Source of the DNA: Hyphomicrobiales bacterium | GTDB taxonomy: Bacteria; Pseudomonadota; Alphaproteobacteria; Parvibaculales; Parvibaculaceae | Direction: 5' to 3' | Assembly: GCA_016124805.1 (NCBI GenBank) | Contig: WGND01000016.1 | Location: 1 to 59,077, forward strand | Length of the DNA stretch: 59,077 bases | In this document: one piece after another, positions 15,119-29,987 of the stretch | Numbering within the stretch: position 1 is the first letter of the stretch | Layout: each line of letters begins with the position of its first letter | Made by a program: the position numbers and the translations under genes | The notes under the pieces: generated by a model | What the model saw: only the letters and a program-made list of their open reading frames with translations | What the model was told of the DNA's origin: nothing | The model's database searches: none

Positions 15119-15163
15119 CCGCAGAAACAGGTTTGGGTCGGCATTTTTCGGGTGGGGGCTTTT

Positions 15164-15970
15164 GTGTTTTCCAAACTAAAAGCAAAAAAAGATATCCCGC
15201 GTCTTTTCTTCCTGCACATACCGAAAACGGCGGGCACGAGTTTTGTCGACCTCGGTGTGCGCTGGTTTGGCCAGAAAAATTCAGCAAACTATATTGAGGG
15301 ACGGCCAGTTGCCGCCCGGAAGAAACTTGGCAAGAAGAGATTTGTTTCAGGACATATTTTTTACGATGAGATGATGCGACTTCCTTATATCGGGGATTGC
15401 AAGCGTGCGATTTTTCTTCGCGATCCCTATGCCCGCCTCGCCTCTCATCTGCGCTATATGGATCGATATAATCAGCCCGAATTCGAACGCGGCTTTGCTG
15501 TCTTGCGTCCCGAGCTACAAGGTATCGTCAAAAAACTCGCGCAGGTCGATTTCAATTCGCCCCGTGAGATCGAGACCTATCTCTCTGATCTCACAGACTG
15601 GGGCAATGCCGCCTATCATAATTGTCAGACGCGTTTTCTTGTTTGCGATCTCGAATCCAGTGCGATCACGCCCTATCTGCCGCAGTTGCCGGAACATGCG
15701 CTTGAGCAGGCGTGCGAAAGACTATCGAAATTTGATTATCTTTGCCTGAGCGAAGAATTTGCAGACAGTGTCGCGCCCATGGCTGCCGATTTTGGGTTTG
15801 ATCTTTTATCGGAAACGCCCCGATCCAACACGGAATCATCATCCCGGAAACTGGACTATCTGGATCCGGCTATCCGGAATGTGTTGGCCCCATTTCTTGA
15901 AGAAGATGTCGCACTCTATCAATTCGCAAGAAAGCTATTTCAGGAGAAGCGGGCGGCAGCGTTTGAGTAA
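15164..15970 (+). CDS. Sulfotransferase family 2 protein
   Basis: Transfers sulfate from PAPS to a carbohydrate-type acceptor if active. The 5'-phosphosulfate loop is textbook for this family: LFFLHIPKTAGTSFVDLG near residues 13-30; a 3'-phosphate strand RAIFLRDPYARLASHLRYM follows near residue 85. About 268 residues. I chose the GTG at 15164, with a G-rich stretch 5 nt upstream; a GTG at 15152 is the alternative. There is no membrane segment, so it is cytoplasmic. Together with the genes at 13202, 16945, 18062 and 19259 it suggests a sulfated, methylated glycan. Confidence 0.85.
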   Translation: MFSKLKAKKDIPRLFFLHIPKTAGTSFVDLGVRWFGQKNSANYIEGRPVAARKKLGKKRFVSGHIFYDEMMRLPYIGDCKRAIFLRDPYARLASHLRYMDRYNQPEFERGFAVLRPELQGIVKKLAQVDFNSPREIETYLSDLTDWGNAAYHNCQTRFLVCDLESSAITPYLPQLPEHALEQACERLSKFDYLCLSEEFADSVAPMAADFGFDLLSETPRSNTESSSRKLDYLDPAIRNVLAPFLEEDVALYQFARKLFQEKRAAAFE

Positions 15971-16076
15971 ATTGATTTGCGGAGATGATTTGTCTTGCTT
16001 TGCAACAATTCCGGAACATCTCACTTTTGAGTGAAGGTCGGCTTTGAAGTCTCGCAATGAGAAGGAGGGGAAGGAT

Positions 16077-16964
16077 ATGACCCGGATGACAGCCAAGGAT
16101 TTTGATCAGGCGCTGCTTGAACTCTATGATTTCTACGCGCATGGACAGATCACCAAGCGTGACTTTCTCAATCAGGCCAGCCGCTGGGCGGTCGGCGGTG
16201 TTACTGCTGCGGCGCTCCTGAATATGCTGAGCCCAGATTATGCGCTGGCCGAACAGGTCTCCTTCAATGATCCGGATATCTATCCGGAATATGTGACCTA
16301 TCCCTCGCCCAACGGCCATGGCGAGGTGCGTGGATATTTGGTGCGCCCTGCGACAGTTGAAGCGCCGCTGCCTGCCGTGCTGGTGATACATGAAAATCGC
16401 GGCCTCAACCCCTATATTGAGGACGTGGCGCGGCGTCTGGCAAAAGCAGGTTATCTTGCTCTTGCGCCAGATGGATTGACGTCGGTTGGCGGCTATCCGG
16501 GCAATGATGCCGAAGGCAGGGAGCTGCAGAAATCCGTAAACCCCGAAAAATTGATGAATGATTTTTTCGCCGGGTTTGAACACCTCATGAGCCATAAACA
16601 ATCGATGGGTAAAGTTGGCGCTGTCGGCTTCTGCTATGGTGGTGGTGTCTGTAACGCGCTGGCCGTTGCCTATCCTGAGCTCGGCGCTTCGGTGCCTTTT
16701 TATGGACGCCAGCCAGCGGTAGAAGATGTGTCAAAAATTAAGGCGCCTTTGCTTCTGCACTATGCGGGTCTGGATGATCGCGTGAATGCAGGCTGGCCGA
16801 CTTATGAAGCCGCGCTCAAGGCCAATTCAAAAACATATCAGGCCTATATCTATCCGGATGTGAATCACGGCTTCCACAATGATTCCACGCCGCGCTATGA
16901 CGAAAGCGCTGCAGAACTCGCCTGGCAGCGGACTCTTGATTGGTTCAAGACCTATTTGAGCTGA
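16077..16964 (+). CDS. Dienelactone hydrolase family protein, probably exported
   Basis: An alpha/beta hydrolase of about 295 residues. The nucleophile is a Cys in [13 protein letters not shown], with the acid in [12 protein letters not shown] and the His in [10 protein letters not shown], the dienelactone-hydrolase triad. Before the domain is a Tat-like stretch: [12 protein letters not shown] followed by a hydrophobic run ending YALAEQ (K-R in place of R-R). Export to the periplasm is therefore likely. The start at 16077 follows a strong AAGGAGGGG; the frame also opens at 16044. Its last 20 bp overlap the convergent sulfotransferase gene. The natural substrate is unknown. Confidence 0.88.
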
Positions 16965-17937
16965 GGGGTTGTTGGACCGATGGTAGATCATCATATGCGA
17001 CCTGCCATCGGCTCAGATCAACATTCAGCAGCGCGGATAGTTTGGCAATATCCTCTGTAAACGCGGCTTGAAGGGTTCCATATTCTTCACGATTCAGTTC
17101 ATCGCGAAGCGTAGGTCGTTCAGGCGCCGGAAGCGGGAATAGCCGATCCATAAGGCGCGGGCCGAAAATTTTGCCGAGCTGTCTTGCCAGACCTTGTCGC
17201 TTTGGTGGGGCCATCCGGGCCGTGTCTGAGTTATGTCGCGCGGTTGCATCTATATTGATGGGTGGAAGACCCAGAAAGGCAAAGACCGCTTCGAGCGTTT
17301 CAGCGGGTTTCTGTTCAAAATCCTCAATAAAGATAATGTGAACCTGATCGCAGCCAAAGACTTCCAGATAGTGCTTCACACCTTCGTAATAGAGCCCTCT
17401 CCGGACATGGGCGAAAATCGGATCATAACCTTCTTTGTGTCGCTCTGCCTCCATTGACAGCGACTCCGCAAATGTTTGGGTCTGGAATTTCGCGGCAAAG
17501 GCATGCCGATATTCCGAATAGGCACGCAGCACAGGGTTCCGCAGCATGATGATAATTCTGCTTTGCGGGTTCCACGCATATATACGTTCGGCCGTGCCTG
17601 GCGTGGAGAGATAGTCGGTCGAAGCCTCTCCAGAGATCGCCTCATCGGAGGTGCCGGAGAACAAGGCGCTATAGCATTCGGCATCCGTCACGATACCCGG
17701 GTGAAACTGCTTGATGCCAAATTCAAATTGTTCAACAGGGTAGTTACAGAAGAACCGGGGTTCCTTGTTGGCCGGCATGAATATTTGGGGATGTTGCTGC
17801 AAGTAATGATATAGCGAGGTTGTTCCGCATTTGGGTGCGCCAACAATTATAAATTCCGGTGCTGATGGCACGTCCTCAATCCCTCTGGTAAATCCGCCCC
17901 GATGTACGGAATCTAGACTGTCAGAGGGCTTTGTCAA
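16945..17937 (-). CDS. Sulfotransferase domain protein
   Basis: A roughly 330-residue PAPS-dependent sulfotransferase. The PAPS loop is [20 protein letters not shown] with the following [15 protein letters not shown], exactly as in heparan- and Nod-factor-type enzymes. The 3'-phosphate strand is [20 protein letters not shown]. It is cytoplasmic, with no transmembrane helix. The frame starts at a TTG (17937); a GTG about 23 codons in is an alternative. Its stop lies inside the end of the convergent dienelactone-hydrolase gene (20-bp overlap). Confidence 0.9.
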
Positions 17938-18061
17938 AACCTGCCCTCATACTTAGCCGAAGAAGGAGCCAGCACCTTATGGCTTGCGGTAAAGCGGTTG
18001 CTTGCTAAGCTTGTTTCAACATATTCATGCCTTTACTGAATGACGGACCCGGGACCCCGCG

Positions 18062-19258
18062 ATGACCAAGAGCAACAAAAAGCCCCCGATGTCCAATCGC
18101 CTCAAGAATGCACTGCGTGTCCTTCGTGGCAAGCAATCTAAAAATCCAGGACCTGTCCTTCTCGAAATTCAGTATCTTCTGCATCGCGATGTGACGACAC
18201 TCAGGGCCAAGCCTGAAATCACAAAAGCGGTGGATCGCGACGACCGGCGGATTGTTGAAAGGATCGTCAAATCATTCCGCCTGCCTTCCGAAGATGCATC
18301 TCAGCCTGCCGATATATGGGACCGCATCTATAATGATTTCCAGAGGCCGACAGTTGAACTTTTAAGAACAGGCGATATTCAGGCCGTGCAGGCCTTGCTG
18401 AAAGACCCTCGTGCAGCCAATCTTTTCATTGGCTTTGATGGTATTTTCCCCGGTGTGGTGCATCTTGACCCAGAGAGTGTCGAGCAAGTGATGGGTGCCG
18501 CCCTTGTGGCGCATGATCACGCCATTTGCGTTGCTGAAGTGACGGGGGCTGTTCGTTACGAAAATCCGCAGGCTGGTCCACTTGCTGCAAAATATGCAGG
18601 CCAGCCGACCGACGACTTCATTGATGCCCTGGAAAAGTTGACGGGCAGCACGCTAACTTTCCCCAATCCCTATCCCGGTGAAGTGGGCGTTGTCACATCA
18701 CGTGGCATCATCTCGCCGCGCGCCCTGCATGCCATCTATCAGGCTTGGCGTATCCGGGAACTGGTCAAGGATATTGCCCATCCGCGTATCCTTGAAATCG
18801 GCGGCGGCATGGGGCGAACAGCCTATTATGCCCGTTCCCTTGGGCTGCATGATTATGCGATTGTCGATCTTCCGTTGGCGGCGGTCGCTCAGGCTTTGTT
18901 TCTCATGCCCACGCTTGGCGAAGACAGGGTTTCCATGCATGGCGAAGAGGCGGGTGAGATGGCCGAGACAATCAAACTCCATCGACCGGAGACCTTCTTC
19001 AATTCCGATCAATCATATGATTTGATTGTGAATGTGGATTCCATGACAGAGATCGGCATTGATGCGGCGCTCGCCTATTGGGAAAAGATCAAGCGTTCAA
19101 CTTCGCGCTATCTTTCCATCAATCACGAGATCAATCCCTTCACCATGGCGCAGATCGCTCGGGAGCATCCAGCCGGGGTCATAAAATATCAACGCTATCC
19201 CTATGGGCCGCGGCGCGGTTATGTCGAGGAATATTTTGAATTCGACGCGGGAGGCTGA
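18062..19258 (+). CDS. Putative sugar O-methyltransferase
   Basis: A 398-residue protein. The SAM-binding motif I is ILEIGGGMGRTAYYARSLG near residue 245, followed by the acidic strand YAIVDLPLAAVAQALFL and a later YDLIVNVDSMTEIG. The family (putative sugar O-methyltransferases of polysaccharide clusters) has a long N-terminal helical region, as seen here. It probably methylates a nucleotide sugar or glycan hydroxyl in the cytoplasm. The glycosyltransferase gene starts one base after its stop (TGA then ATG), so the two are coupled. This pairing supports a role in glycan building. Confidence 0.82.
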   Translation: MTKSNKKPPMSNRLKNALRVLRGKQSKNPGPVLLEIQYLLHRDVTTLRAKPEITKAVDRDDRRIVERIVKSFRLPSEDASQPADIWDRIYNDFQRPTVELLRTGDIQAVQALLKDPRAANLFIGFDGIFPGVVHLDPESVEQVMGAALVAHDHAICVAEVTGAVRYENPQAGPLAAKYAGQPTDDFIDALEKLTGSTLTFPNPYPGEVGVVTSRGIISPRALHAIYQAWRIRELVKDIAHPRILEIGGGMGRTAYYARSLGLHDYAIVDLPLAAVAQALFLMPTLGEDRVSMHGEEAGEMAETIKLHRPETFFNSDQSYDLIVNVDSMTEIGIDAALAYWEKIKRSTSRYLSINHEINPFTMAQIAREHPAGVIKYQRYPYGPRRGYVEEYFEFDAGG

Positions 19259-20458
19259 ATGGCGATGTCGAGGAAGTTTTCTGTTCTGCTGCCAACGCGC
19301 GATCGCCTGGAACTGGCCAAGGGCGCGATAGAGACAGTGCGCCGTCAACCTTACAAAAACTGGGAACTGGTCCTTTCAGATAATTGTTCGCGTGAGAATG
19401 TGGCTGAATATGTTCAGTTGCTCAATGATCCGCGGATCCAATACATCCGGTCCGACACGCCGCTCCACGTCACCGAAAACTGGAACCGTGCCATTGAGGC
19501 TGCCACCGGTGACTATGTTGTGATGCTGGGTGACGATGATGGGCTCATCCATGGCTATTTTGACCGCCTGAACGAAGTACTCGATCAACTCGAACAGCCA
19601 GATTTTGTTTTTACCGGTGCGTTCAATTTTACATTTCCCGGAGTCATCGCGGATTGTCCGGATGGCAAGATCGAAGATGTCAGCATTTATCAGAGTTTCT
19701 TTGTCGGCCGCGACAATCCTTCTCTGCTGCCAAAGGTCGAAGCACATGCTGCAGCACGCGCTGCCCTTGATATGCAGGCTGTCTATGGCTTCAACATGCA
19801 ATATTTTCTTTTCAGTCGGCCTTTTCTTGAACGCATGCGTGAATATGGTCCCGTTTTTCAGGGGCCTTTTCCGGATTTCTATGCCGCCAATCTGGCGATG
19901 TTGATCGCCGACCGTATTGGCTTGCTGCCCGAACCTGTTGTTTTTATCGGTATCTCGCCGAAGTCATATGGCTTCTTCCATTTCAACGAGCAGGAGAAAG
20001 GCGGCATGGCTTTTCTCAATGCTGAACGAAGCATGGAGCCCTCTGACGCGATCAGGGACAGTCTCCTGCCGGGAACCAATATGAATACGTCCTGGCTGAT
20101 TTCGGTGGATCAGGTCAGAGCTGTTCTTGGTGATAGAATGAATCTGGCCGTCGGTGTTGACCGCTACAGATTGCTGCAACTCTTTTATATCATCGAGAGA
20201 GAGGGAACCCCCAACGCCGTTGACACCACGATTGCTGATCTTTGGTCAAAGCTTGCGTGGCGTGAAAAAACGGCAGTGTTGGCGTTTCGTTTCACACAGC
20301 TTCTCAAATACCTGCCTTACCGGCAGCTTTACAAATTGGCACATAAGCGTGTTGTGAAAGCGTTGGCCCAGTATCCACGAAAGAAGGGGCGGGTGCCGCT
20401 TCAGGTGCAGGGCCAGTTCCGCTCAATGACTGATGTCTATGACGCCTTGCGGCTATAG
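19259..20458 (+). CDS. Glycosyltransferase family 2
   Basis: A 399-residue GT-A enzyme. It has FSVLLPTRDRLELAKGAIETV at the N terminus (nucleotide-sugar strand), WELVLSDNCSRENVAEY, and a DxD-type metal site in GDYVVMLGDDDGL near residue 90. The C-terminal half, after about residue 230, has no clear family match. There is no transmembrane anchor. A GGGAGGC ribosome site lies in the end of the methyltransferase gene. The donor and acceptor are unknown. It ends 15 bp from the convergent gene at 20474. Confidence 0.9.
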   Translation: MAMSRKFSVLLPTRDRLELAKGAIETVRRQPYKNWELVLSDNCSRENVAEYVQLLNDPRIQYIRSDTPLHVTENWNRAIEAATGDYVVMLGDDDGLIHGYFDRLNEVLDQLEQPDFVFTGAFNFTFPGVIADCPDGKIEDVSIYQSFFVGRDNPSLLPKVEAHAAARAALDMQAVYGFNMQYFLFSRPFLERMREYGPVFQGPFPDFYAANLAMLIADRIGLLPEPVVFIGISPKSYGFFHFNEQEKGGMAFLNAERSMEPSDAIRDSLLPGTNMNTSWLISVDQVRAVLGDRMNLAVGVDRYRLLQLFYIIEREGTPNAVDTTIADLWSKLAWREKTAVLAFRFTQLLKYLPYRQLYKLAHKRVVKALAQYPRKKGRVPLQVQGQFRSMTDVYDALRL

Positions 20459-20473
20459 GCGGCGAGCGCCGCG

Positions 20474-21337
20474 CTAGTTGATGATCCTCAACAGCCGCCA
20501 GAAGCCTTGTTTCCATGTTATGAAACGACCCAGGCTGATCAGTTTTTCCCGAATGTTTGCGATATAGGGATCTGCATCCTCCCCCCAACTCGCCCGAGAT
20601 TGTTTGCGGCGCCAGTACTGGATCGAGTGTATATATGTGGTCGTCTGGTTGTCTGATATGAGCAGGTTTTCCTGCCGTCCGCATCGAAACACATTCGCCC
20701 TGGGCCAGGATTCTTTGGGATAGGCGACACCATCACAGCCAACGAGATAGGCTTGAAGCCCACGTGCCTGAAGTTGGCGCGTCATGTTGTTTTGGCCGGC
20801 TTCAAACAGGCGACAGCACCATTTTGTTTGGAGTGTGCCAAAATCAAGAGACAGAAATTCATGTCGTTGAACAGCGAAGGCATTCGTCCTGATATGCGCA
20901 TTAGGATAGGACACCTCATCATTAATGGTCTCCCAACTGCCGGTCGCGCCCGTCACGCCGACTGCTGACTCAAATTCAAATGGGTGCAGCATCTTGGCGA
21001 GCCAGCCGTCACATTCGATCTTTGAATATGAGTTCAAAAACACCAGATAGTCGCTCTCCAGATTTTCAGCAGCAAATTTATAGGCATTGATATCAAAGCC
21101 TTCGTCAGCCATTTCCAGAAATCTGGTTTCTGGTACCCGGCTCAACGCCATCGCTTTGAAGCGTTCGCGCCCGCGGCGGTCGAAGCCCTTCATCAGAATG
21201 ACGAGGTCATGATCATATCCGGGATCATGCGCCAGATAGCTGTCCAGAAAACGGTCAAAAAGACGGTCTGGATTGCACTGGCGGACGAGATGAGTCACTG
21301 AAACCTTAGAATTGACTCTCAAGGGGACCTCAAACAC
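20474..21337 (-). CDS. Glycosyltransferase-like protein
   Basis: A 287-residue protein with a GT-A-like pattern: HDLVILMKGFDRRGRERF (nucleotide strand), DINAYKFAAENLESDYLVFLNSYSKIECDGWL (a position equivalent to the GT2 DxD strand, but reading NSYSK rather than DxD), and VGVTGATGSWETIN. The metal-binding Asp pair is therefore not obvious, and activity is uncertain. The frame starts with GTG at 21337; a GTG at 21298 with AAGG before it is an alternative. It is convergent with the GT2 gene. Confidence 0.6.
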   Translation of the reverse strand: MFEVPLRVNSKVSVTHLVRQCNPDRLFDRFLDSYLAHDPGYDHDLVILMKGFDRRGRERFKAMALSRVPETRFLEMADEGFDINAYKFAAENLESDYLVFLNSYSKIECDGWLAKMLHPFEFESAVGVTGATGSWETINDEVSYPNAHIRTNAFAVQRHEFLSLDFGTLQTKWCCRLFEAGQNNMTRQLQARGLQAYLVGCDGVAYPKESWPRANVFRCGRQENLLISDNQTTTYIHSIQYWRRKQSRASWGEDADPYIANIREKLISLGRFITWKQGFWRLLRIIN

Positions 21338-21996: not shown

Positions 21997-22353
21997 ATGA
22001 TATACAGCCTTGCTCTCCCAAAAACAGATCCGCAAATGAGCTCTGCCACCATTCAGGTTATTTACCCGATGGAGGGCACGCTCATGGTGCCGGGAAGCAA
22101 ATTGCTGGATATCAAGGTCGATCTCAGCCTTGCGGCCTCGCATGATTGTCCGCCCGTGAGCTTCCACCGTATTGCGCTCCGCGATCGCGTTTGGCTGCGT
22201 CGTTTGCTGGTGCCTCTGAATGCCGAGCTTGCGGTGGGAACGAAACTCGCGCTCTTCAGCACCACAGCTGATGAAAGCCTCGACGTTGCGCCTGCCCGCG
22301 AGGTGAGAACCAGTATGGCCAGCATTCTCCAGCAAACAGATTATTGGGACTAG
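21997..22353 (+). CDS. Degenerate lipoyl-domain-like protein without the lipoylation lysine
   Basis: A 118-residue protein that aligns end to end with the lipoyl protein at 23721-24026. Both begin MIY-x-L-x-x-P, both have a G-x-(7)-G hairpin (EGTLMVPGSK here, EVGRAFEPGE there), and both end with x-x-G-x-x-L-A-L-F-S (AVGTKLALFS here). At the turn where the partner has ETHKA, this protein reads VDLSLAASHDCPP, with no Lys. So it keeps the barrel-sandwich fold but cannot be lipoylated in the usual way. The start at 21997 is supported by the shared MIY start rather than by a ribosome site. The SGNH-like gene follows 4 bp downstream. A scaffold or pseudo-carrier role is inference. Confidence 0.6.
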   Translation: MIYSLALPKTDPQMSSATIQVIYPMEGTLMVPGSKLLDIKVDLSLAASHDCPPVSFHRIALRDRVWLRRLLVPLNAELAVGTKLALFSTTADESLDVAPAREVRTSMASILQQTDYWD

Positions 22354-22357
22354 CCTC

Positions 22358-23728
22358 ATGCCGAGCATTGCCTTGAAGCTGGGTCCTCTGGTGCCGGAGG
22401 GATGCATTGTCCGACGGTCCGGATTTCGCTGGCTCTGTGCAGATGGTGCACAGGTGAAGGCCGGCGAGCCCGTCGCCTATTGCAATATTGGCGTTACAAA
22501 GGCCGGCACAGCTTACAAATCAATTGAGGGGTTTGCCGAGGAGACGTTTGATTTTCAGGTCGCCTTTGTCCTGCAGAGTGATGGTGTCGTCCATCGGGCG
22601 CCTGAAAGTTCACGCGGGGGATATATTGATCAGCTCGTACATTTTCATCAATGGAACGCTGAATATGTGCTGGGCTCGCTGACCGTTTCAGAAGGCGATC
22701 TGCCCAGGGGCAAGAACGCTACGCGGCTCGTTTTCGCCGCCGGTCGAAGGGTGACGGATGTTGCGGAAATTCGTTCCGGTTTCATTTCCGGTTGGCATAA
22801 CCGCACGCGCGCCTGGACCAGCGGCCCAAGGGGTGTGGAGCGGACACTGATCAGTCTGGGCAGTTGTGAAACGACGCTGATGATCAGGGGCGACAATGCC
22901 GGCTATATGGAACTGCTGAATGGCTCAAGCTGTCCCATGCAGGTTGTTCTGGTGCCGGATGATTTTCTCATTCCTTGCGCGCGTGTTGTTCTGGAGCAGG
23001 TGCGTCGAACACCTTCGGAGCTTGACGCGATTGCGCAGGATCTGGCAAACACCTTGCCGAAGGTCGCCTCGACACCGTCATCCGAAGACTGGATGCTGGC
23101 AGGTGTGCTGCTGGGATCGCTGAAGCGCTCACCATTGACTGAACCCACCGAAGTCCTGACGCGCGCCGGGCTGCAGACAATTTCAGGACCTGATGCGGTC
23201 GTCATGTCACTTATTGCCGAACCACCCCGCATATTCCGGCATCGGCGTCTTGGCTATGCGATCTGCTTCATGGATCACCGTCTGAAAGTCATGGGACAGG
23301 CGTTCAAGGAGTGGCTGCGGGATAATTTTGTGGCTGTGCGTCGCGAAGCTGAAGATATCCGCAAGGATTACAGCGAATTGATAAAATATATGCACCAGCG
23401 ATCAGCCCTGCATTTCATTATTCTCAACCGACTGTCCAGCAGGGGAACGGAAGACCTGTTCAATTATGCTCCCTTTGATCCGCCAATGGGAAACACGCTT
23501 GAAAGCATCCACAACAAGGAAATGAATCTCATGTTGTACGATCTGGCGCGTGAGCATGAGATATCGATTATCGATATAGACGCTTTCGCTGCCGAACTGG
23601 GGGAAAGACGCCATCTCCCGGACGCGGTGCACTTAAGCGGTTCTCTGCAGGACGAGGCCCGAAACGAAATTCTGCGCGTGATGGACACATATCAGCCCAG
23701 GAAATCGCCGGTCAGCGCCATCAGGTAA
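22358..23728 (+). CDS. Large SGNH-hydrolase-like protein with lipoyl-like N-terminal segment
   Basis: A 456-residue protein. Its first 50 residues resemble the start of a lipoyl/biotinyl barrel (CADGAQVKAGEPVAYCNIG). Residues about 60-200 are beta-rich and unassigned. The last 200 resemble an SGNH hydrolase, with the strand LHFIILNRLSS, the helix NLMLYDLAREHEISIIDIDAF, and the final Asp-x-x-His block PDAVHLSG (Asp 422, His 425). The Ser-bearing block I is not obvious, so I cannot claim a complete triad. It is cotranscribed with the degenerate lipoyl gene, and its last 8 bp overlap the convergent lipoyl gene. A role as esterase or O-acyltransferase is inference. Confidence 0.6.
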   Translation: MPSIALKLGPLVPEGCIVRRSGFRWLCADGAQVKAGEPVAYCNIGVTKAGTAYKSIEGFAEETFDFQVAFVLQSDGVVHRAPESSRGGYIDQLVHFHQWNAEYVLGSLTVSEGDLPRGKNATRLVFAAGRRVTDVAEIRSGFISGWHNRTRAWTSGPRGVERTLISLGSCETTLMIRGDNAGYMELLNGSSCPMQVVLVPDDFLIPCARVVLEQVRRTPSELDAIAQDLANTLPKVASTPSSEDWMLAGVLLGSLKRSPLTEPTEVLTRAGLQTISGPDAVVMSLIAEPPRIFRHRRLGYAICFMDHRLKVMGQAFKEWLRDNFVAVRREAEDIRKDYSELIKYMHQRSALHFIILNRLSSRGTEDLFNYAPFDPPMGNTLESIHNKEMNLMLYDLAREHEISIIDIDAFAAELGERRHLPDAVHLSGSLQDEARNEILRVMDTYQPRKSPVSAIR

Positions 23729-24026
23729 TTTCAAAATCCACAAGCATCGCGGTCAACTGCTCGGCATCATCAGGTATGGGTTCATCAGGTTCATCACTGA
23801 AAAGCGCAAGCGCCGCACCAATCTTCTGCCAGTCACCTTCAGCACAAAGAATATCACGCAGCACGCTTATTTTGCTTGCACGAACCTCGACAATCGCCTT
23901 GTGTGTTTCAAGCTCGACAACAAGTTCGCCGGGTTCAAATGCCCGCCCGACCTCACCATGCCACTCAAGAATGCGGACTTCCTCAACATCGGGAACGGGC
24001 CCGGGCACTTGCAATTGGTAGATCAT
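23721..24026 (-). CDS. Free-standing lipoyl-domain carrier protein
   Basis: A 101-residue single-domain protein, MIYQLQVPGPVPDVEEVRIL and onward. The lipoylation turn is VELETHKAIVEV, with Lys 43 in the place of the usual E-T-D-K-A. The second half, ISVLRDILCAEGDWQKIGAALALFS, is the typical return strand. There is no E2 catalytic domain and no E1/E3-binding domain, so it is a stand-alone carrier. It lies 57 bp after E1 beta on the same strand, with GGAG 6 nt before its ATG. The inferred role is to accept an acyl group from the E1 pair and hand it to an unknown acceptor. Confidence 0.82.
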   Translation of the reverse strand: MIYQLQVPGPVPDVEEVRILEWHGEVGRAFEPGELVVELETHKAIVEVRASKISVLRDILCAEGDWQKIGAALALFSDEPDEPIPDDAEQLTAMLVDFEIT

Positions 24027-24083
24027 GGATTCTCCGACAGTGATGTTTTTTGACGCTCTTTATGCCTGTTTCAATCATGAAGG

Positions 24084-25085
24084 TCACCCTCCTTTGCCGT
24101 TCAGCAGGGTCAAAACACACGTCACGATCTTATCGGCATCGGGCAGGCTGGCTGCTTCCAGAACGCGGTTGGAAGACACCGGCGCTGCAACGGCGCCGAT
24201 CCGCGCGATTTTGACTCCATCAAGCATCTCGCGCAGGCGGAAAGAAATTTCACTGCCGACGCCACATGTCAGTTGCCCTTCCTCCACCGTCACCATGACA
24301 CCTGTCTTTTTCACCGACGTGCAGATGGTGGCCATATCGAGCGGCGCCAGGCTTCGCAGGTCGATGACATCGCAGGAAACACCCTGGGCGTTGAGCCGCT
24401 CTGCGGCTTGTAATGTGGGCGTCATCATATAGGAAAAACTCACGAGAGTGACGTCACTGCCGCTGCGGACATGCAGCGCCTGCCCGAACGGGATGCATGC
24501 CGCTTTAACGGGTACATGACCGGCGGTCGGAAAAAGCCGCTTGTGGTCGATATAGACGACCGGGCCCTCTTCGCGCAGCGCTGTCTTTAGCAGACCATAA
24601 GCATCCGCCGGCGTTGAAGGAGCCACAACCTTGAGGCCGGGCACCGCCATCAGCCATGCTTCAATGCATTGTGAATGGGCAACGCCCTGTCCTTTCGCAC
24701 CTGCCGTTGTTTTCACAACGACGGGTGCACGCAATTGTCCCGCTGTTTTGAAGCGGAGTTTGGCGGCGTAGTTGACGAGCGGATCAAGGGCCAGCATCAG
24801 GAAATCCATATAGGTGATGCTCACAAGTGTGCGCATTCCCGCCGCCGCTGCACCAACACCGATACCAACCATGGCCGCCTCGGCGACCGGCATGTCGCGC
24901 ACGCGCTCTGCGCCGAACGCATCGAAGAGTCCGTCAAACTCGCGATAAGAGCCGCCAAAGGCACCAATATCCTGACCCAGCAGGGTCAGTTTCGGATCCG
25001 CCTGCATTTCTTCTTGCAGGGCGCGGATAATGGCCTCACGGAAGAATATTTTCGTTGCTGCAGCTGTTTCATCAGACAATGTCAT
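24084..25085 (-). CDS. 2-oxo-acid dehydrogenase E1 component, beta subunit
   Basis: About 333 residues from the ATG at 25085 (MTLSDETAAATKIFFREAII); the frame opens at 25127. It has the normal E1 beta layout: LLGQDIGAFGGSYREFDGL, the TPP-pyrimidine-contacting VAEAAMVGIGVGAAAAGMR (the conserved Glu), and AKGQGVAHSQCIEAWLMAVPG, plus the transketolase C-terminal domain with CDVIDLRSLAPLD. It pairs with the alpha subunit just upstream (14-bp overlap) to make a thiamine-diphosphate enzyme that decarboxylates a 2-oxo acid. No E2 acyltransferase or E3 lies nearby. An acetoin-dehydrogenase-like or carboligating enzyme is possible. Confidence 0.92.
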   Translation of the reverse strand: MTLSDETAAATKIFFREAIIRALQEEMQADPKLTLLGQDIGAFGGSYREFDGLFDAFGAERVRDMPVAEAAMVGIGVGAAAAGMRTLVSITYMDFLMLALDPLVNYAAKLRFKTAGQLRAPVVVKTTAGAKGQGVAHSQCIEAWLMAVPGLKVVAPSTPADAYGLLKTALREEGPVVYIDHKRLFPTAGHVPVKAACIPFGQALHVRSGSDVTLVSFSYMMTPTLQAAERLNAQGVSCDVIDLRSLAPLDMATICTSVKKTGVMVTVEEGQLTCGVGSEISFRLREMLDGVKIARIGAVAAPVSSNRVLEAASLPDADKIVTCVLTLLNGKGG

Positions 25086-25998
25086 GAAGCACCTCTGCAG
25101 GATCGGGGAAGGCGGCTGCCTCCGCAAAGACGGACGCCGCCTGCACGGCCGCGTTAACGTCTTTCTTCATCTGGTCGAGGTCTGCCTGACTGATCTCACC
25201 ATCCATAAGCATCTGGGAAGAGAGTCGGACAATGGGACAAAGCGCCTGTATCGCTTCTATCTCGGCAGTCGGACGGCTCTCACGCGCTGAAGTGGAGTGG
25301 GGTGTGAAACGATATGAAATACATTCAAGAAAGGCAGGGCCTTTCCCGGCCCGAATGTGGTCTGAGAACTCCCGTGTTGCATCCCGAACGGCCGTGACGT
25401 CCATGCCGTCCACGGTCAGGGCGGGCATGCCGAAGGGCACGGCAAGATCAGAAAGCTTCTGGGGCGCCAGTGCGGCGGCGCGCGGCGTCGAAACGGAATA
25501 CTGATTATTGTTGCAGACAAGAAGCAGCGGCAGATGCCATAGGGCCGCAATATTGAGGGTCTCGTGCAATGCGCCGGCACCACAGGCACCATCTCCAAAC
25601 ATGCAGGCCACAAGGTTCTGGTTACCTTCGGATTGCATGGCGAGCGCAACACCGGCTGCAATTGTCAGATTACCGCCGACAACGGCATGGGCCCCAAAGA
25701 AGCCCTGCGCGGGCAACGCCATATGCCCTCGTCCCGCACGGCCACGGCAGGGGCCCGCAACCTTGCCAAGCAGTTCCGCCAGAACAAGACCTGGTTCCAG
25801 ACCGCGCGCAAGGGCGGGGCCAATGGCGCGCCCGCTGCACAGCAGTTGGTCATCGCGATTCAGGACGCTGCACAGCCCGACTGAGACAGCTTCTTCCCCA
25901 CTGGAAAAAAGCTGGAACCCGTGGTCTCTGCGCTTGATGAGATGTTGCTCAAATGTGCGTATGAGGAGCATGTCGTGCAAGAGCTCATGCGCCGACAT
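25072..25998 (-). CDS. 2-oxo-acid dehydrogenase E1 component, alpha subunit
   Basis: About 308 residues from the ATG at 25998 (MSAHELLHDMLLIRTFEQHL), preceded by GGGGA; the frame opens at 26052. The thiamine-diphosphate motif is complete: FGDGACGAGALHETLNIAAL (GDG at 135-137) ending in VCNNNQYSVS (Asn about 163-165). The GHMALPAQGFFGAHAVVGG segment is also typical of E1 alpha. It is somewhat shorter than PDH E1 alpha (about 330-380), closer to acetoin-type subunits. It overlaps the upstream SGNH-like gene and the downstream beta subunit by 14 bp each, which suggests tight coexpression. Confidence 0.92.
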   Translation of the reverse strand: MSAHELLHDMLLIRTFEQHLIKRRDHGFQLFSSGEEAVSVGLCSVLNRDDQLLCSGRAIGPALARGLEPGLVLAELLGKVAGPCRGRAGRGHMALPAQGFFGAHAVVGGNLTIAAGVALAMQSEGNQNLVACMFGDGACGAGALHETLNIAALWHLPLLLVCNNNQYSVSTPRAAALAPQKLSDLAVPFGMPALTVDGMDVTAVRDATREFSDHIRAGKGPAFLECISYRFTPHSTSARESRPTAEIEAIQALCPIVRLSSQMLMDGEISQADLDQMKKDVNAAVQAASVFAEAAAFPDPAEVLHDIV

Positions 25999-26686
25999 GC
26001 TGGTCCCCTTCCGAGCGGAGCTGTTTCTGCCATTGGGGCAAGCGATAGACAATGCCCTGAATGCCGCCGGACATTCTTTGCAGCTTTATCTGGTCATCAG
26101 GTGAAACCAGATCATCAAGCCCGGCAGTGGCAAGAATTGTTGCGATCACATCACCGGCAATAAAGGTGCCCAGCCTGCCGCGGAGACGATAGTCAGTCTG
26201 GGCACTGCGGGCGCCGATATAGGTCAATGCGCGATCAATATCGATGACATTGACGCCCAGCGATTGTGAAAGCTCCAGGGCCAGCAGGTTGATGCGGCGA
26301 ATGCGTTCGAGTGTCCACGCACGCGATGGCTGGCCGACACCTATCTGGTCCTTTGGGACATGTCGGAAAATCGTACAGATAAAGACGGGGCATTGATGTT
26401 GTGTCATCAGCGCCTCAATTCGCAGGCGCCAAGTTGTTTCGAGCTCCGTCATCGACTTATCAACAGCGGTCAGTCCGCCGAGCAGCGACATGATGATCAT
26501 GTCGGGCGTTTTGGTCTCATTGCCCGACGCGGTGGCATTCTCAAATAGCGTCTCGATTTTGTGAGCTTCACCTGTGGCAACCGAAAGACGGCGACCCAGC
26601 TGACGCGCCGCCATGATAAAAGGAGGCCGTTCAACAGGTGTGTCGACGAGAGCCTGAATGAAAAACGCTGTTCGATGGGCGGTCAT
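25985..26686 (-). CDS. SGNH-like protein with a degenerate active site
   Basis: A 233-residue protein with the flavodoxin-like SGNH pattern: PDMIIMSLLGGLTAV, the strand CPVFICTIFRHVP, and the helix-strand RIRRINLLALELSQSLGVNVIDIDRAL. At the place of the final Asp-x-x-His block it reads TDYRLRGRLG, so the catalytic His appears to be lost. No GDS-type block I is seen either. It probably binds rather than hydrolyses. Its start overlaps the GT2 stop (ATGA) and its end overlaps E1 alpha by 14 bp. It is the middle member of three SGNH-like proteins in this block. Confidence 0.6.
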   Translation of the reverse strand: MTAHRTAFFIQALVDTPVERPPFIMAARQLGRRLSVATGEAHKIETLFENATASGNETKTPDMIIMSLLGGLTAVDKSMTELETTWRLRIEALMTQHQCPVFICTIFRHVPKDQIGVGQPSRAWTLERIRRINLLALELSQSLGVNVIDIDRALTYIGARSAQTDYRLRGRLGTFIAGDVIATILATAGLDDLVSPDDQIKLQRMSGGIQGIVYRLPQWQKQLRSEGDQHVGA

Positions 26687-27801
26687 GCGGGATTACCCCC
26701 AGGAAGGGCCGCGTCGCGAGCCACCTTCGGTGATGTTGATGCCGTCTGGTGCCAGAAGTCCGATCCAAGGGGGACAAAACCGATCGCCTGCCGCGCTATA
26801 TCATAGTCAAGACCAGTGTCACCGCGTGCGGCGGCTGCCAGTTCCAGCAATGAGGAGATGCGATATTCTGGCGGCACACGGGAAGTTGAAGATATCGAGG
26901 CCCAGAAGACAGCAAGCAAGGCCACAGCCGGATTCGGTTGGGCCTGAAGAAAGACTGGCTCCCAGTCTGCTTCTTTCAGAGGGTCCCGCCAGCCGCTTCG
27001 ATGGGTCAGGTGATAGCTATATGCACCCATCAGTGGGACCATCCTGTGTCCATGCTGGGTCAGCCGCAATGCCATCTCCCGGTGCTCATTATTGTCGATC
27101 AATTCGTCGAATCCGCCATTGTCGACAAAAGCATCGCGTCGCATCGACATATTGCTGCCGGATGACGCGCTCCACAGCACATCGCAATCAGGGTGATTGA
27201 CCAACGCATCTGTTTCGATTTCATAGAGATATCGCGGCCCTGCACCTGGATAGATTCCCGGCTCTGCGCGGCGGTGAATAGCCTGAAAGTCTTCATACAC
27301 CTGTGTCAGGGTCACGCGCGAACGGTCAAGCTCGGCAGCAGGACGACGGGCAAGGTCTTCAGCACGATCCGGCCAGGCTGTTCCCGCATCAGGGTCTTTG
27401 AATATCCGCGTGCAGCGAAGGTGGTGTGGATCACCACGACAGATGAGTTGCCGTTCTTTCTGATGCGCGTCCATATGCTTGGAGAGCAGTTCGGGCATTG
27501 CCGGCGTGTCGCCGTCGAGAAGCAGCAATATCTCGCCACGCGCGACGCGGGCACCGGCATTTGATGCTGCTGAACGGCCCTGCGCTGCGTCATGTCGAAC
27601 CACATTGAGCGGAAGACGCCTTGCCGCATCGGCAAGCACCGAGGCGGTGTGATCGCTTGAGCCGTCATCAACGACGATGATCTCGCAGTCAGAGGTCTGA
27701 CATTCAAGGGACGCCAGCGTCAGCTTAAGACGATCCGCCTCGTCCTTGGACCGGATGACAACGCTCAGATAGGGCTTTTTGCTGACGTGACCTATAGGCA
27801 T
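26683..27801 (-). CDS. Glycosyltransferase family 2
   Basis: A 372-residue GT-A enzyme. YLSVVIRSKDEADRLKLTL is the nucleotide-sugar strand, followed by CEIIVVDDGSSDHTASVL and the DxD site ILLLLDGDTPAM near residue 97. Further on, DCDVLWSASSGSNMSMRRDAF and FDELIDNNEHREMALRL match the acceptor region of GT2/GT27-like enzymes (an ED-like pair is in NNEH). No membrane helices are seen. It overlaps the SGNH gene upstream by 10 bp and the SGNH-like gene downstream by 4 bp. This places sugar transfer in the same operon as the E1/lipoyl genes. Confidence 0.88.
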   Translation of the reverse strand: MPIGHVSKKPYLSVVIRSKDEADRLKLTLASLECQTSDCEIIVVDDGSSDHTASVLADAARRLPLNVVRHDAAQGRSAASNAGARVARGEILLLLDGDTPAMPELLSKHMDAHQKERQLICRGDPHHLRCTRIFKDPDAGTAWPDRAEDLARRPAAELDRSRVTLTQVYEDFQAIHRRAEPGIYPGAGPRYLYEIETDALVNHPDCDVLWSASSGSNMSMRRDAFVDNGGFDELIDNNEHREMALRLTQHGHRMVPLMGAYSYHLTHRSGWRDPLKEADWEPVFLQAQPNPAVALLAVFWASISSTSRVPPEYRISSLLELAAAARGDTGLDYDIARQAIGFVPLGSDFWHQTASTSPKVARDAALPGGNPA

Positions 27802-28571
27802 CCGAGATCATCCAATATGCGAACGACTTCTTCGGCTATCAAACGGCAACCATCGCCGTTCAGATGCAGCGTGTCGATTTTGAGATGATCCGTACCATGA
27901 CGGGCAAGTATCGTGTCGACATCCACAATGGATATCCCCTTTTTTTGGGAAAGTTCGATGAGGCCCAGATTAAAGCGTTTGATACGGGTTGAAAGACTGT
28001 CTTCAAGGCCGAGAAAGCAATGTATCGAATCGCTCGGCACAACGGAGGATACATTGTAGATCAGGATCGGTGCATCTGCCTGAACCTGGCAGCGATCAAT
28101 GATCCGGGAAAAATTGTCCATTGACTGATCGACATCAAGCAGGCTGACACGATCAAAACAGGTCCGGAGCCATTGTTTTTGTTCCGGCGCCTGAATCTCA
28201 TGCGCATTGGTAAAAATCAGATATCCCTCGGTCTTGTGGCGCCACAGGGGATTGGCAATATCCGGCATGGCGGAAAGAATGATGGCATCCGATTTTGTTT
28301 CGAACAGGGCCTGACTGAACTGGGAGACGGCCGGATAGGCACCCAGGGGAAGATCGTGTTGCATCAGGTCTTTCGGGACGCTGCCACCCGACTGGAGGAG
28401 GGCGTCTGACCGGGTCCAGGTCTCGTGGCGCAGCCGAACCGTCGTATCGGGATAACGCGCGCGGACCAGTTCATTGATTCCATTCCATTTCAATTCGCCA
28501 TTCAGCTTCAACGAGTGAAGCGAATCCCGCAGGTCAAGATTCCCTTTCAGGAAGATATTCAGCCGGGGCAT
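27792..28571 (-). CDS. SGNH/GDSL hydrolase-like protein
   Basis: A 259-residue protein and first gene of the minus-strand operon. The N terminus FLKGNLDLRDSLHSL could be a modified block I. DAIILSAMPDI, the strand APILIYNVSSVVP, and the helix NLGLIELSQKKGISIVDVDTIL follow the SGNH pattern. The last block DTLHLNGDGCRLIAEEVV has the catalytic Asp-x-x-His (Asp 233, His 236). Of the three SGNH-like proteins here it is the most complete. SGNH enzymes act as esterases or as O-acyltransferases for glycans; which applies is unknown. The divergent 120-bp region upstream is shared with the transglutaminase-like gene. Confidence 0.7.
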   Translation of the reverse strand: MPRLNIFLKGNLDLRDSLHSLKLNGELKWNGINELVRARYPDTTVRLRHETWTRSDALLQSGGSVPKDLMQHDLPLGAYPAVSQFSQALFETKSDAIILSAMPDIANPLWRHKTEGYLIFTNAHEIQAPEQKQWLRTCFDRVSLLDVDQSMDNFSRIIDRCQVQADAPILIYNVSSVVPSDSIHCFLGLEDSLSTRIKRFNLGLIELSQKKGISIVDVDTILARHGTDHLKIDTLHLNGDGCRLIAEEVVRILDDLGCL

Positions 28572-28691: not shown

Positions 28692-29987
28692 ATGAATCGC
28701 ATTGGAACAAAGGGGGACCCGCGGTACCGGCATGTCGCTGAAGACCGTATTCTGGATTATCTCCTTTTGCTTGGTTTCCCTCAGCTTGTGCGGACGGGTG
28801 AGCGTGCGCAGGCGATGCGGGCGGCACGCAACGCGCTTTCCCGATGGGTTGAAATGGGCCTCCCCAGATCAACAGACTCAAGGGGGGTGAACCATTACGC
28901 CCCCTTTGAGGTTGTCAATTTCATGAAATGGGCGGGGCGCTATCAAGGGGACCCTTTCTGGGCTGTCCAGTATATTCAGACTGCCAGACGACACGCCCTT
29001 GCGCAGGATGCAGCATGGGCCGCATTAGGCCCTCCCTTCAAAGCCGGTTTGCTGCCCGACAAAAAAATCCAACTCACATTCACGCGGTCATTCAACCTGT
29101 CGACATTGGAGCCGGGCAAGCCTGTCCGACTGCGATTGCCCGTGCCGCTTGAGGACGAAAAACTGGTTCTGTCATCCTTTGAGATCGGGCAGACAGCGGA
29201 TGATGAAATCAAGCTCCGGAAATCGGCAGACCGCTTGGAGGCGAGGCTCAATGTGCCCGCCTCGCGGCAGGTGAGCCTTTCCTATCAAGCTGTTTTTGAC
29301 ATTCCCATGAATGATGTCGATGCCATAATGAAGGGCCCGCCTGCCGCATTGGATGATCATGAACGGCGTCTTTATACGGAACCGAGTGAAGGCTTCATCC
29401 GTGTGTCACCGGCCGTTCTGGCGCTGGCGGATGACCTGACCGGGCCTGGTGATACACCTCGCGAGAGTGCGGTTTCTTTCTGGAATGACCTGATGGACCG
29501 GCTGATGTTTGGTCTGATCCACTATCACGAGATCGATATGGCGCAGCCAATGGATTGGCTGCTGGATCATGTCTGGTCGGACTGCCAGCTGGGGTCGGCG
29601 CTTTTTGTTTCACTCTGCCGCGCGAAAAAAATTCCCGCGCGCATTCGAGGCGGCATCAAGCTCTATCCCGACGCCTGTGATCCGCATTATTGGGCGGAGG
29701 TCTGGTTTGACGATTCAGGTTGGACGCCTTTTGACTTCGGCGCATGGGATCTCGCAATCGGTGGACAGGATAGAGACTGGCGAGAGATTTATCTTGGGGC
29801 CGTCGATTACCGCATGACCACGGAGTGCTTGCCCCGGTTTTTTGTCGGCCCCATGAGCCTGCGCCTGCCGGAGGCATGGAATCTGGTCACGCGTCTGGAA
29901 GACGAAGGTATTTCTGCCACCTATGGCAATGCCCTGACAGGCGCGGAGACATACCGCGACCACATCGTGATGAGCGAAATGCACTAG
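28692..29987 (+). CDS. Transglutaminase-like domain protein
   Basis: A 431-residue protein. Residues 1-115 are helical and unassigned; about 125-210 form a beta-rich domain; the C-terminal part is a transglutaminase-like fold. Its Cys-His-Asp triad is visible: SDCQLGSALFVSLCR (Cys 298), DPHYWAEVWFDDSGW (His 332), TPFDFGAWD (Asp 348). No signal peptide or membrane helix is clear. The family includes peptidases, amidases and crosslinking enzymes. It is divergent from the SGNH/GT2/E1 operon across 120 bp, so shared control is possible. Confidence 0.85.
   Translation: MNRIGTKGDPRYRHVAEDRILDYLLLLGFPQLVRTGERAQAMRAARNALSRWVEMGLPRSTDSRGVNHYAPFEVVNFMKWAGRYQGDPFWAVQYIQTARRHALAQDAAWAALGPPFKAGLLPDKKIQLTFTRSFNLSTLEPGKPVRLRLPVPLEDEKLVLSSFEIGQTADDEIKLRKSADRLEARLNVPASRQVSLSYQAVFDIPMNDVDAIMKGPPAALDDHERRLYTEPSEGFIRVSPAVLALADDLTGPGDTPRESAVSFWNDLMDRLMFGLIHYHEIDMAQPMDWLLDHVWSDCQLGSALFVSLCRAKKIPARIRGGIKLYPDACDPHYWAEVWFDDSGWTPFDFGAWDLAIGGQDRDWREIYLGAVDYRMTTECLPRFFVGPMSLRLPEAWNLVTRLEDEGISATYGNALTGAETYRDHIVMSEMH

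Follow-up and report, generated by a model that had tools for sequence, protein, structure and literature searches.

Two-subunit E1 enzymes and lipoyl domains are best known from the 2-oxo acid dehydrogenase complexes, among them pyruvate dehydrogenase (PDH), branched-chain 2-oxo acid dehydrogenase (BCKDH) and acetoin dehydrogenase. To our knowledge, oxidative decarboxylation by E1 and lipoate in these complexes passes the acyl group to coenzyme A (CoA) through E2. Paired E1 subunits also act in sugar pathways: for aldgamycin and kibdelomycin, pairs of the alpha-keto-acid dehydrogenase-2 type place a C2 unit onto a keto-sugar (PMC12247030). We describe here a nine-gene cassette in a 59,077-nt stretch of DNA from a Hyphomicrobiales bacterium (Parvibaculaceae; GCA_016124805.1, contig WGND01000016.1, positions 1 to 59,077 of the forward strand), hereafter the window. 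The cassette is a conserved system that retains E1 and a lipoyl carrier, has no E2 or E3, and links them to SGNH proteins of a cysteine type and to a glycosyltransferase of family 2 (GT2). We put at about an even chance that it is a CoA-free acylation machine, in which acyl-lipoyl from E1 is passed to a glycan by a cysteine SGNH enzyme or a transglutaminase-like enzyme. If so, glycans would be acylated straight from 2-oxo acids with acyl-CoA pools bypassed, and acyl transfer would gain two further parts, a lipoyl fold that has a cysteine but no lysine and an SGNH branch in which Cys replaces Ser. The cassette proteins belong to known superfamilies; what may be new is their assembly.

Eight of the genes lie at window positions 21997-28571, where a first-pass annotation of the sequence had placed them; that annotation missed the ninth, a transglutaminase-like gene at 28692-29987 that encodes another possible acyltransferase. 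Its naming of E1 alpha and beta, a single lipoyl domain and a GT2 was upheld by Pfam and NCBIfam (E1_dh, PF00676, 1.2e-61; Transket_pyr, PF02779, 1.9e-37; Transketolase_C, PF02780, 1.3e-30; Biotin_lipoyl, PF00364, 1e-7; Glycos_transf_2, PF00535, 3.1e-21), and, as it had reported, no E2 or E3 gene occurs within the cassette. The lipoyl carrier gene and the gene for SGNH-A converge with an 8-base overlap. Upstream of the carrier on the minus strand, five genes overlap head to tail, with both E1 start sites set from homologues.

E1 alpha (25072 to about 25998, minus strand; the longest frame begins at 26052) and E1 beta (24084 to about 25085, minus strand; the longest frame begins at 25127 and the start is taken as the ATG at its residue 15) share the thiamine diphosphate (TPP) motif and the catalytic Glu and His with the 2-oxo acid dehydrogenase complexes. 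All 13 cassette loci, that is, the window and 12 loci found elsewhere, keep Asp154 and Asn183 in the TPP motif and His252 in the loop of E1 alpha, and Glu83 and His151 in E1 beta (longest-frame numbering). Among proteins of solved structure, E1 alpha is closest to human PDH E1 alpha (5.7e-46) and E1 beta to a bacterial 2-oxo acid dehydrogenase (4.3e-62). Reductive acylation of a lipoyl domain is common to all E1s, and by this family chemistry the cassette enzyme likely removes CO2 from a 2-oxo acid and loads the acyl group onto the lipoyl carrier. In E1 alpha, Ile77 replaces the His of the PDH ‘RAHG’ (Arg-Ala-His-Gly) segment at 13/13 loci; branched-chain E1s are likewise not known to have this His, so the replacement hints, from sequence, at a substrate other than pyruvate. 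In a tree of E1 alpha proteins, 12/12 cassette sequences formed one clade (support 100/100, stem 1.56) apart from 45 other E1 alphas; the partial L071 sequence was excluded, two outside sequences were long-branched and two cassette sequences were of unusual composition.

Absence of the RAHG His would also suit carboligation, in which the E1 pair would add a two-carbon (acetyl) unit to a keto-sugar while the lipoyl protein and the SGNH proteins tailor the branch. The glycan context of the loci, the precedents for aldgamycin and kibdelomycin (PMC12247030), with which the cassette would share a two-subunit E1 in a sugar pathway, and carboligation by Escherichia coli PDH E1 itself (PMC7696235) favor this alternative. 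Carboligation, however, needs no lipoyl carrier with an invariant attachment lysine, and the nine genes include no NDP-sugar dehydratase or ketoreductase. Section 2.2 of PMC12247030 names lipoamide for the acetoin dehydrogenase system only and no lipoyl carrier for the sugar enzymes, whereas the cassette carrier is always there with its lysine. We consider carboligation, one of the two main rivals together with an amide route described below, fairly unlikely.

An ordinary dehydrogenase with its E2 elsewhere was one of the findings that the first-pass annotation had named as refuting its proposal. In the genome, which is 99.8% complete, two E2 cores (PF00198) are present, neither in the cassette: one is in the PDH locus on contig C19, together with the genome’s only other E1 alpha match at 1e-30, and one is on contig C12, flanked by frames that look by eye like sucA and lpd, at the 2-oxoglutarate complex locus. 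No spare E2 for the cassette E1 was found in this genome, and the proposal was not refuted on this point. In plasmids, E2 came directly after E1 beta in 3/3 E1 neighborhoods examined (of 40 listed and 630 matched). From both observations, an ordinary dehydrogenase served by a distant E2 is an improbable identity for the cassette E1. A related possibility is that the cassette is an ordinary 2-oxo acid dehydrogenase whose E1 and lipoyl domain feed the E2 core of the cell’s pyruvate complex, thereby making acyl-CoA; the PDH-like character of the E1 by NCBIfam (TIGR03182, 2e-79, below its cut-off) agrees with this. We hold it to be very improbable, given a carrier of 101 aa with Biotin_lipoyl as its sole match and the separate E1 clade, and it leaves the linkage to SGNH, GT2 and transglutaminase genes unexplained. 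With neither an E2 core nor E3, a free single-domain carrier and its own E1 alpha clade, the cassette is outside the 2-oxo acid dehydrogenase complexes by its lack of E2, and works like their first half.

Two other E1 arrangements were encountered. On Streptomyces fungicidicus plasmid p1 (L080:6105-11591), genes for E1 alpha, E1 beta, E2 and an acyl carrier protein (ACP) that forms a protein of its own stand in a row that comes after an acetate-CoA ligase gene, among universal stress protein genes; E2-to-ACP acyl transfer is possible there. In a genome of the same genus as the window (L016; G018:C5:418992), an E1 alpha match lies inside an 866-aa frame that is possibly a fused E1 alpha-beta.

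The lipoyl carrier (23721-24026, minus strand; 101 aa, single domain) reads VELETHKA in the window and VELET[H/Y]KA overall, an instance of the E-T-x-K-A motif of 2-oxo acid dehydrogenase lipoyl domains. The ETHKA motif noted in the first-pass annotation is real, and its attachment lysine, K43, is invariant (12/12). A lipoyl synthase gene is present in the genome. The 118-aa protein lip1 (21997-22353, plus strand), earlier called a second lipoyl-like protein, is indeed homologous to the carrier (hhalign probability 97.9%, E 4.3e-13), and it has no lysine at the usual place. Lipoyl domains were among the folds that best matched its AlphaFold (AF2) model (pLDDT confidence score 87.9; best match E 1.5e-3, probability 1.00), so that hhalign and the predicted structure together point to a lipoyl-domain fold. 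An elongated hairpin is predicted between strands 35-42 and 54-61, its loop modelled with lower confidence (pLDDT 67-80). Residues 43-53 include no lysine in 12/12, and the L071 protein has no lysine anywhere; Cys51-Pro-Pro is present in the hairpin in 12/12. The missing hairpin lysine makes lipoate attachment in the usual mode impossible for lip1, judged from its sequence. The protein gave no Pfam match, and its profile found no credible match among Protein Data Bank (PDB) sequences. It could be a scaffold, or an acyl relay on its cysteine. In the G297 locus, a ligase-like gene (L059:7362-8738; AMP-binding 5.4e-5, below cut-off; CapK/PaaK-like by eye) stands just before lip1, and is a possible alternative acyl source.

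Three SGNH-like proteins had been proposed, and all three are SGNH relatives, one of them, SGNH-B, with the DxxH histidine lost. SGNH-A (22358-23728, plus strand; 456 aa) consists of a beta-rich N-terminal part, outside the coverage of the VIA list, followed by a domain at about 159-446 that is predicted to adopt the SGNH fold. A lipoyl-like origin of the N-terminal part was considered and found unsupported (hhalign 1.2% and 6.6%). Cys170 occupies the block I nucleophile position instead of Ser in 12/12, a position assigned from strand 162-166 and the following helix, and the block V DxxH residues D422 and H425 are kept in 12/12. SGNH-C (27792-28571, minus strand; 259 aa) is related to SGNH-A (hhalign 99.5%); it keeps H236 and N173 in 12/12 and D233 in 11/12, with Leu/Val at the block I nucleophile site. 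Matches to Lipase_GDSL_2 (PF13472) were below cut-off for both SGNH-C (5e-5) and SGNH-A (0.03), and neither profile had a credible match among PDB sequences. SGNH-B (25985-26686, minus strand; 233 aa) is a degenerate relative that matched SGNH-C at E 5e-6. The window copy has no Pfam match, the L068 copy has a weak Lipase_GDSL_2 match (8.8e-4), and D-Y/H/F-R/T-L/M, with no His, stands at the expected DxxH site in 12/12.

With SGNH enzymes that transfer or cleave O-acyl groups (PatB, OatA, acetylxylan esterases), SGNH-A shares the fold of its 159-446 region and the DxxH block, but differs in its Cys nucleophile, extra N-terminal part and lack of an export signal by eye; the cassette also differs in having two degenerate SGNH partners. 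A second comparison is with WcbI, a CoA-binding capsule enzyme that has a reactive Cys in its active pocket and presumably depends on a partner (PMC4104973). An active-pocket Cys, a thioester cofactor, a presumed partner and a glycan pathway would be common to both, whereas the cofactor of WcbI is CoA and its fold is termed novel by its authors. No WcbI match was listed in Pfam and PDB-sequence searches of the cassette proteins, and we take WcbI as a lead only.

The transglutaminase-like protein (28692-29987, plus strand; PF01841, 2.7e-14) has the core domain and the Cys-His-Asp triad of its superfamily. Cys298 is kept in 12/12, and His332 and Asp348 in all 11 sequences that reach them. The gene is present in 11/12 other loci, the L063 contig ending before it. 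This invariance, and the retention of the gene despite its shuffled place, argue for an amide route in which acyl-lipoyl is the donor, the transglutaminase-like enzyme transfers the acyl group onto an amino sugar or protein, and the SGNH proteins are esterases or scaffolds. In work on andrimid, transglutaminase homologues reportedly use carrier-bound acyl groups. Against this route, SGNH-A retains a complete Cys-Asp-His set, and a Planktothrix gene run considered below has no annotated transglutaminase gene; we regard it as unlikely.

A neighborhood not conserved in other genomes was the other finding that the first-pass annotation had named as refuting its proposal, and here too the proposal was not refuted, the neighborhood being conserved. 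Genome contigs were scanned with a two-sequence E1 alpha alignment, which yielded 12 loci among 121 pattern stretches and, with the window, 13 cassette loci. All nine genes are present in 11/13, the ninth gene of L062 running off the contig end; L063 (4.4-kb contig) and L071 (5.7-kb contig) have five and six genes, respectively, up to the contig end. Since these genes recur together in 13 loci, the cassette is not a chance cluster. Hosts comprise Gluconacetobacter diazotrophicus PA1 5 (L064), a named strain of a plant endophyte with all nine genes, Falsiroseomonas, and metagenome-assembled genomes (MAGs) labelled Micropepsaceae, Acidocella, several sphingomonads, Nevskia, Verrucomicrobia and Kuenenia. 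MAG contigs make up ten of the 12 named loci, so that some of these names (Nevskia, Verrucomicrobia or Kuenenia, for instance) may be wrong. With the same length and genes, L061 and L059 were treated as one contig, G297:C26, to which the Kuenenia label was taken to belong; this locus has the same nine genes, with an E1 alpha 65% identical to that of the window, in a genome from another family. Gene content is constant while order varies, the transglutaminase-like gene or the GT2 moving place or strand (for example in L063, L064, L065 and L068).

Because the 12 loci were detected through E1 alpha, co-occurrence counts are conditional on that gene, and an SGNH-C profile served as the reverse test. 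It matched 2/385 genomes of the class (the window’s own and G297) and 1/398 of the phylum (its own). An E1 alpha search of the class at E <= 1e-61 returned 15/385 genomes, namely the window’s own, G297 (65%) and 13 at 38-42% identity. The flanking 1.2-1.5 kb in those 13 had no other cassette genes except E1 beta and one weak lipoyl match in L053. A lip1 profile matched 3/372 class genomes, which were both cassette genomes and, over 42 positions, a 432-aa frame of G305. Among 61 near relatives, SGNH-B was found in the window’s own genome only (1/61) and 26 same-genus genomes were negative, the query being one sequence and so liable to overlook divergent copies; the best E1 alpha there scored 205 bits, versus 719 to itself. 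This rare and patchy distribution is likely due to horizontal gain. Pairwise distances of the nine proteins correlated in Mantel tests (0.65 to 0.93; 10/13 loci, the partial L062, L063 and L071 being excluded), as expected for joint inheritance and no more, the test having no housekeeping control. No cassette relative was present among 29 pattern matches in viral contigs, no SGNH-C match in phages and no GT2 relative at 1e-20 in plasmids. Among the open-licence PMC papers listed, none named this gene set in its title or the start of its abstract, although absence from print is not thereby shown.

In plasmids, SGNH-A and SGNH-C matched a single record, from plasmid p3 of the cyanobacterium Planktothrix agardhii (L083:11967-18224). 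This one-strand gene run, possibly an ACP-fed relative of the cassette, encodes an AMP-ligase piece, an ACP (so annotated; PF00550 0.0017, below cut-off), a FAD protein piece, a methyltransferase-SGNH fusion, a lipoyl-carrier homologue, an SGNH-TPR protein and a sulfotransferase. The methyltransferase-fused protein is related to SGNH-C (tblastn 2e-26, hhalign 2e-27). The second SGNH homologue (3.5e-24 to SGNH-C and 1.2e-9 to SGNH-A) carries DFAH, and GGCD by eye outside the aligned part. The 140-aa lipoyl homologue is closer to the carrier (5e-8) than to lip1 (1e-5), and has lysines without the ETxKA motif. No GT2 or transglutaminase homologue was identified in the stretch. Like the cassette, the run combines SGNH homologues (two) with a homologue of the lipoyl carrier among glycan and sulfotransferase genes, with an AMP ligase and ACP in Planktothrix where the cassette has E1; the SGNH and lipoyl-homologue pair therefore also occurs beside a different thioester carrier.

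The cassette GT2 (26683-27801, minus strand) is 48-62% identical in other loci. Beyond it, glycan genes were found in the flanks of 8/13 loci, by Pfam for the window, L064, L065, L066 and L069 and by similarity to the L065 GT2 for L061, L070 and L071. Wzx-type genes flank L064 and L069, with Wzz and a weak Wzy_C match beside L069. These genes, and sulfotransferases in the window and Planktothrix, oppose the idea that the carrier handles something other than a plain acyl group (a sulfur or hydroxyacyl intermediate) and that the product is a glycosylated metabolite, not a surface glycan. The flanks of the Nevskia-labelled L060 show no glycan genes by eye, in keeping with that idea, which seems to us quite improbable. 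An accessory tenth cassette member, a second small GT2 (GT2b), is present in L061, L065, L070 and L071, with 41-54% identity from locus to locus. By crude clustering, no flank gene recurred in more than three loci; flank gene calls were longest frames, some on the wrong strand, and the clustering may miss shared genes, as it did GT2b of L061 and L071.

Under the favored reading of CoA-free glycan acylation, E1 alpha/beta with thiamine diphosphate would decarboxylate a 2-oxo acid and reductively acylate the lipoyl group of the 101-aa carrier. In place of E2-to-CoA transfer, the thioester would pass to a cysteine acyltransferase, most likely at Cys170 of SGNH-A and perhaps via Cys51 of lip1; SGNH-B and SGNH-C would be subunits that lack catalytic activity or hold the substrate. 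The acyl group would then be placed on a sugar that the cassette GT2 adds to a surface glycan or lipid-linked precursor, the transglutaminase-like enzyme could be a second or alternative acyltransferase giving an amide, and host E3 would re-oxidise the carrier. No export signal was seen by eye on any cassette protein, so this chemistry is probably cytosolic. The acyl group, the acceptor, lipoylation, the thioester relay and the role of each SGNH protein are parts of this reading that we infer. The earlier proposal of transfer from acyl-lipoyl to an SGNH protein is partly supported overall; the carrier lysine that never varies, the SGNH domain with its Cys and the cyanobacterial ACP parallel all add weight to it. 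A more specific version, in which the acyl group moves from the lipoyl carrier to the lip1 hairpin Cys, to the Cys-SGNH and to the glycan without CoA, as part of a wider family of Cys-SGNH and lipoyl-fold proteins with a swappable acyl source (E1 and carrier here, ligase and ACP in cyanobacteria), is a speculative one that we think has some, though a minor, chance of being right.

Several observations weigh against glycan acylation by this machinery. At the strand where SGNH enzymes usually have it, no block III Asn could be made out by eye in SGNH-A, which leaves catalysis uncertain, and Foldseek searches with either predicted model, that of lip1 among them, returned nothing at E <= 0.001. 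E3 must be supplied by host complexes, and the cassette has no transporter or acceptor-making gene. No flank glycan gene was established in 5/13 loci (L060, L067 and L068 by eye; L062 and L063 have little flank). The Planktothrix parallel is a single record, in which the methyltransferase-fused SGNH protein has no DxxH His.

PADLOC returned 0 matches for the 6 proteins tested, and a scan for promoters and terminators gave 9 promoter-like sites versus 5.3 expected, too slight an excess to rely on. Outside the cassette, Pfam identified flanking glycan genes at window positions 15152-21337, comprising two sulfotransferases, a GT2 and a methyltransferase-like gene. The two sulfotransferase-family genes (15152-15970 and 16945-17937) stand around a gene that is dienelactone-hydrolase-like by eye, near the GT2 and the methyltransferase-like gene.

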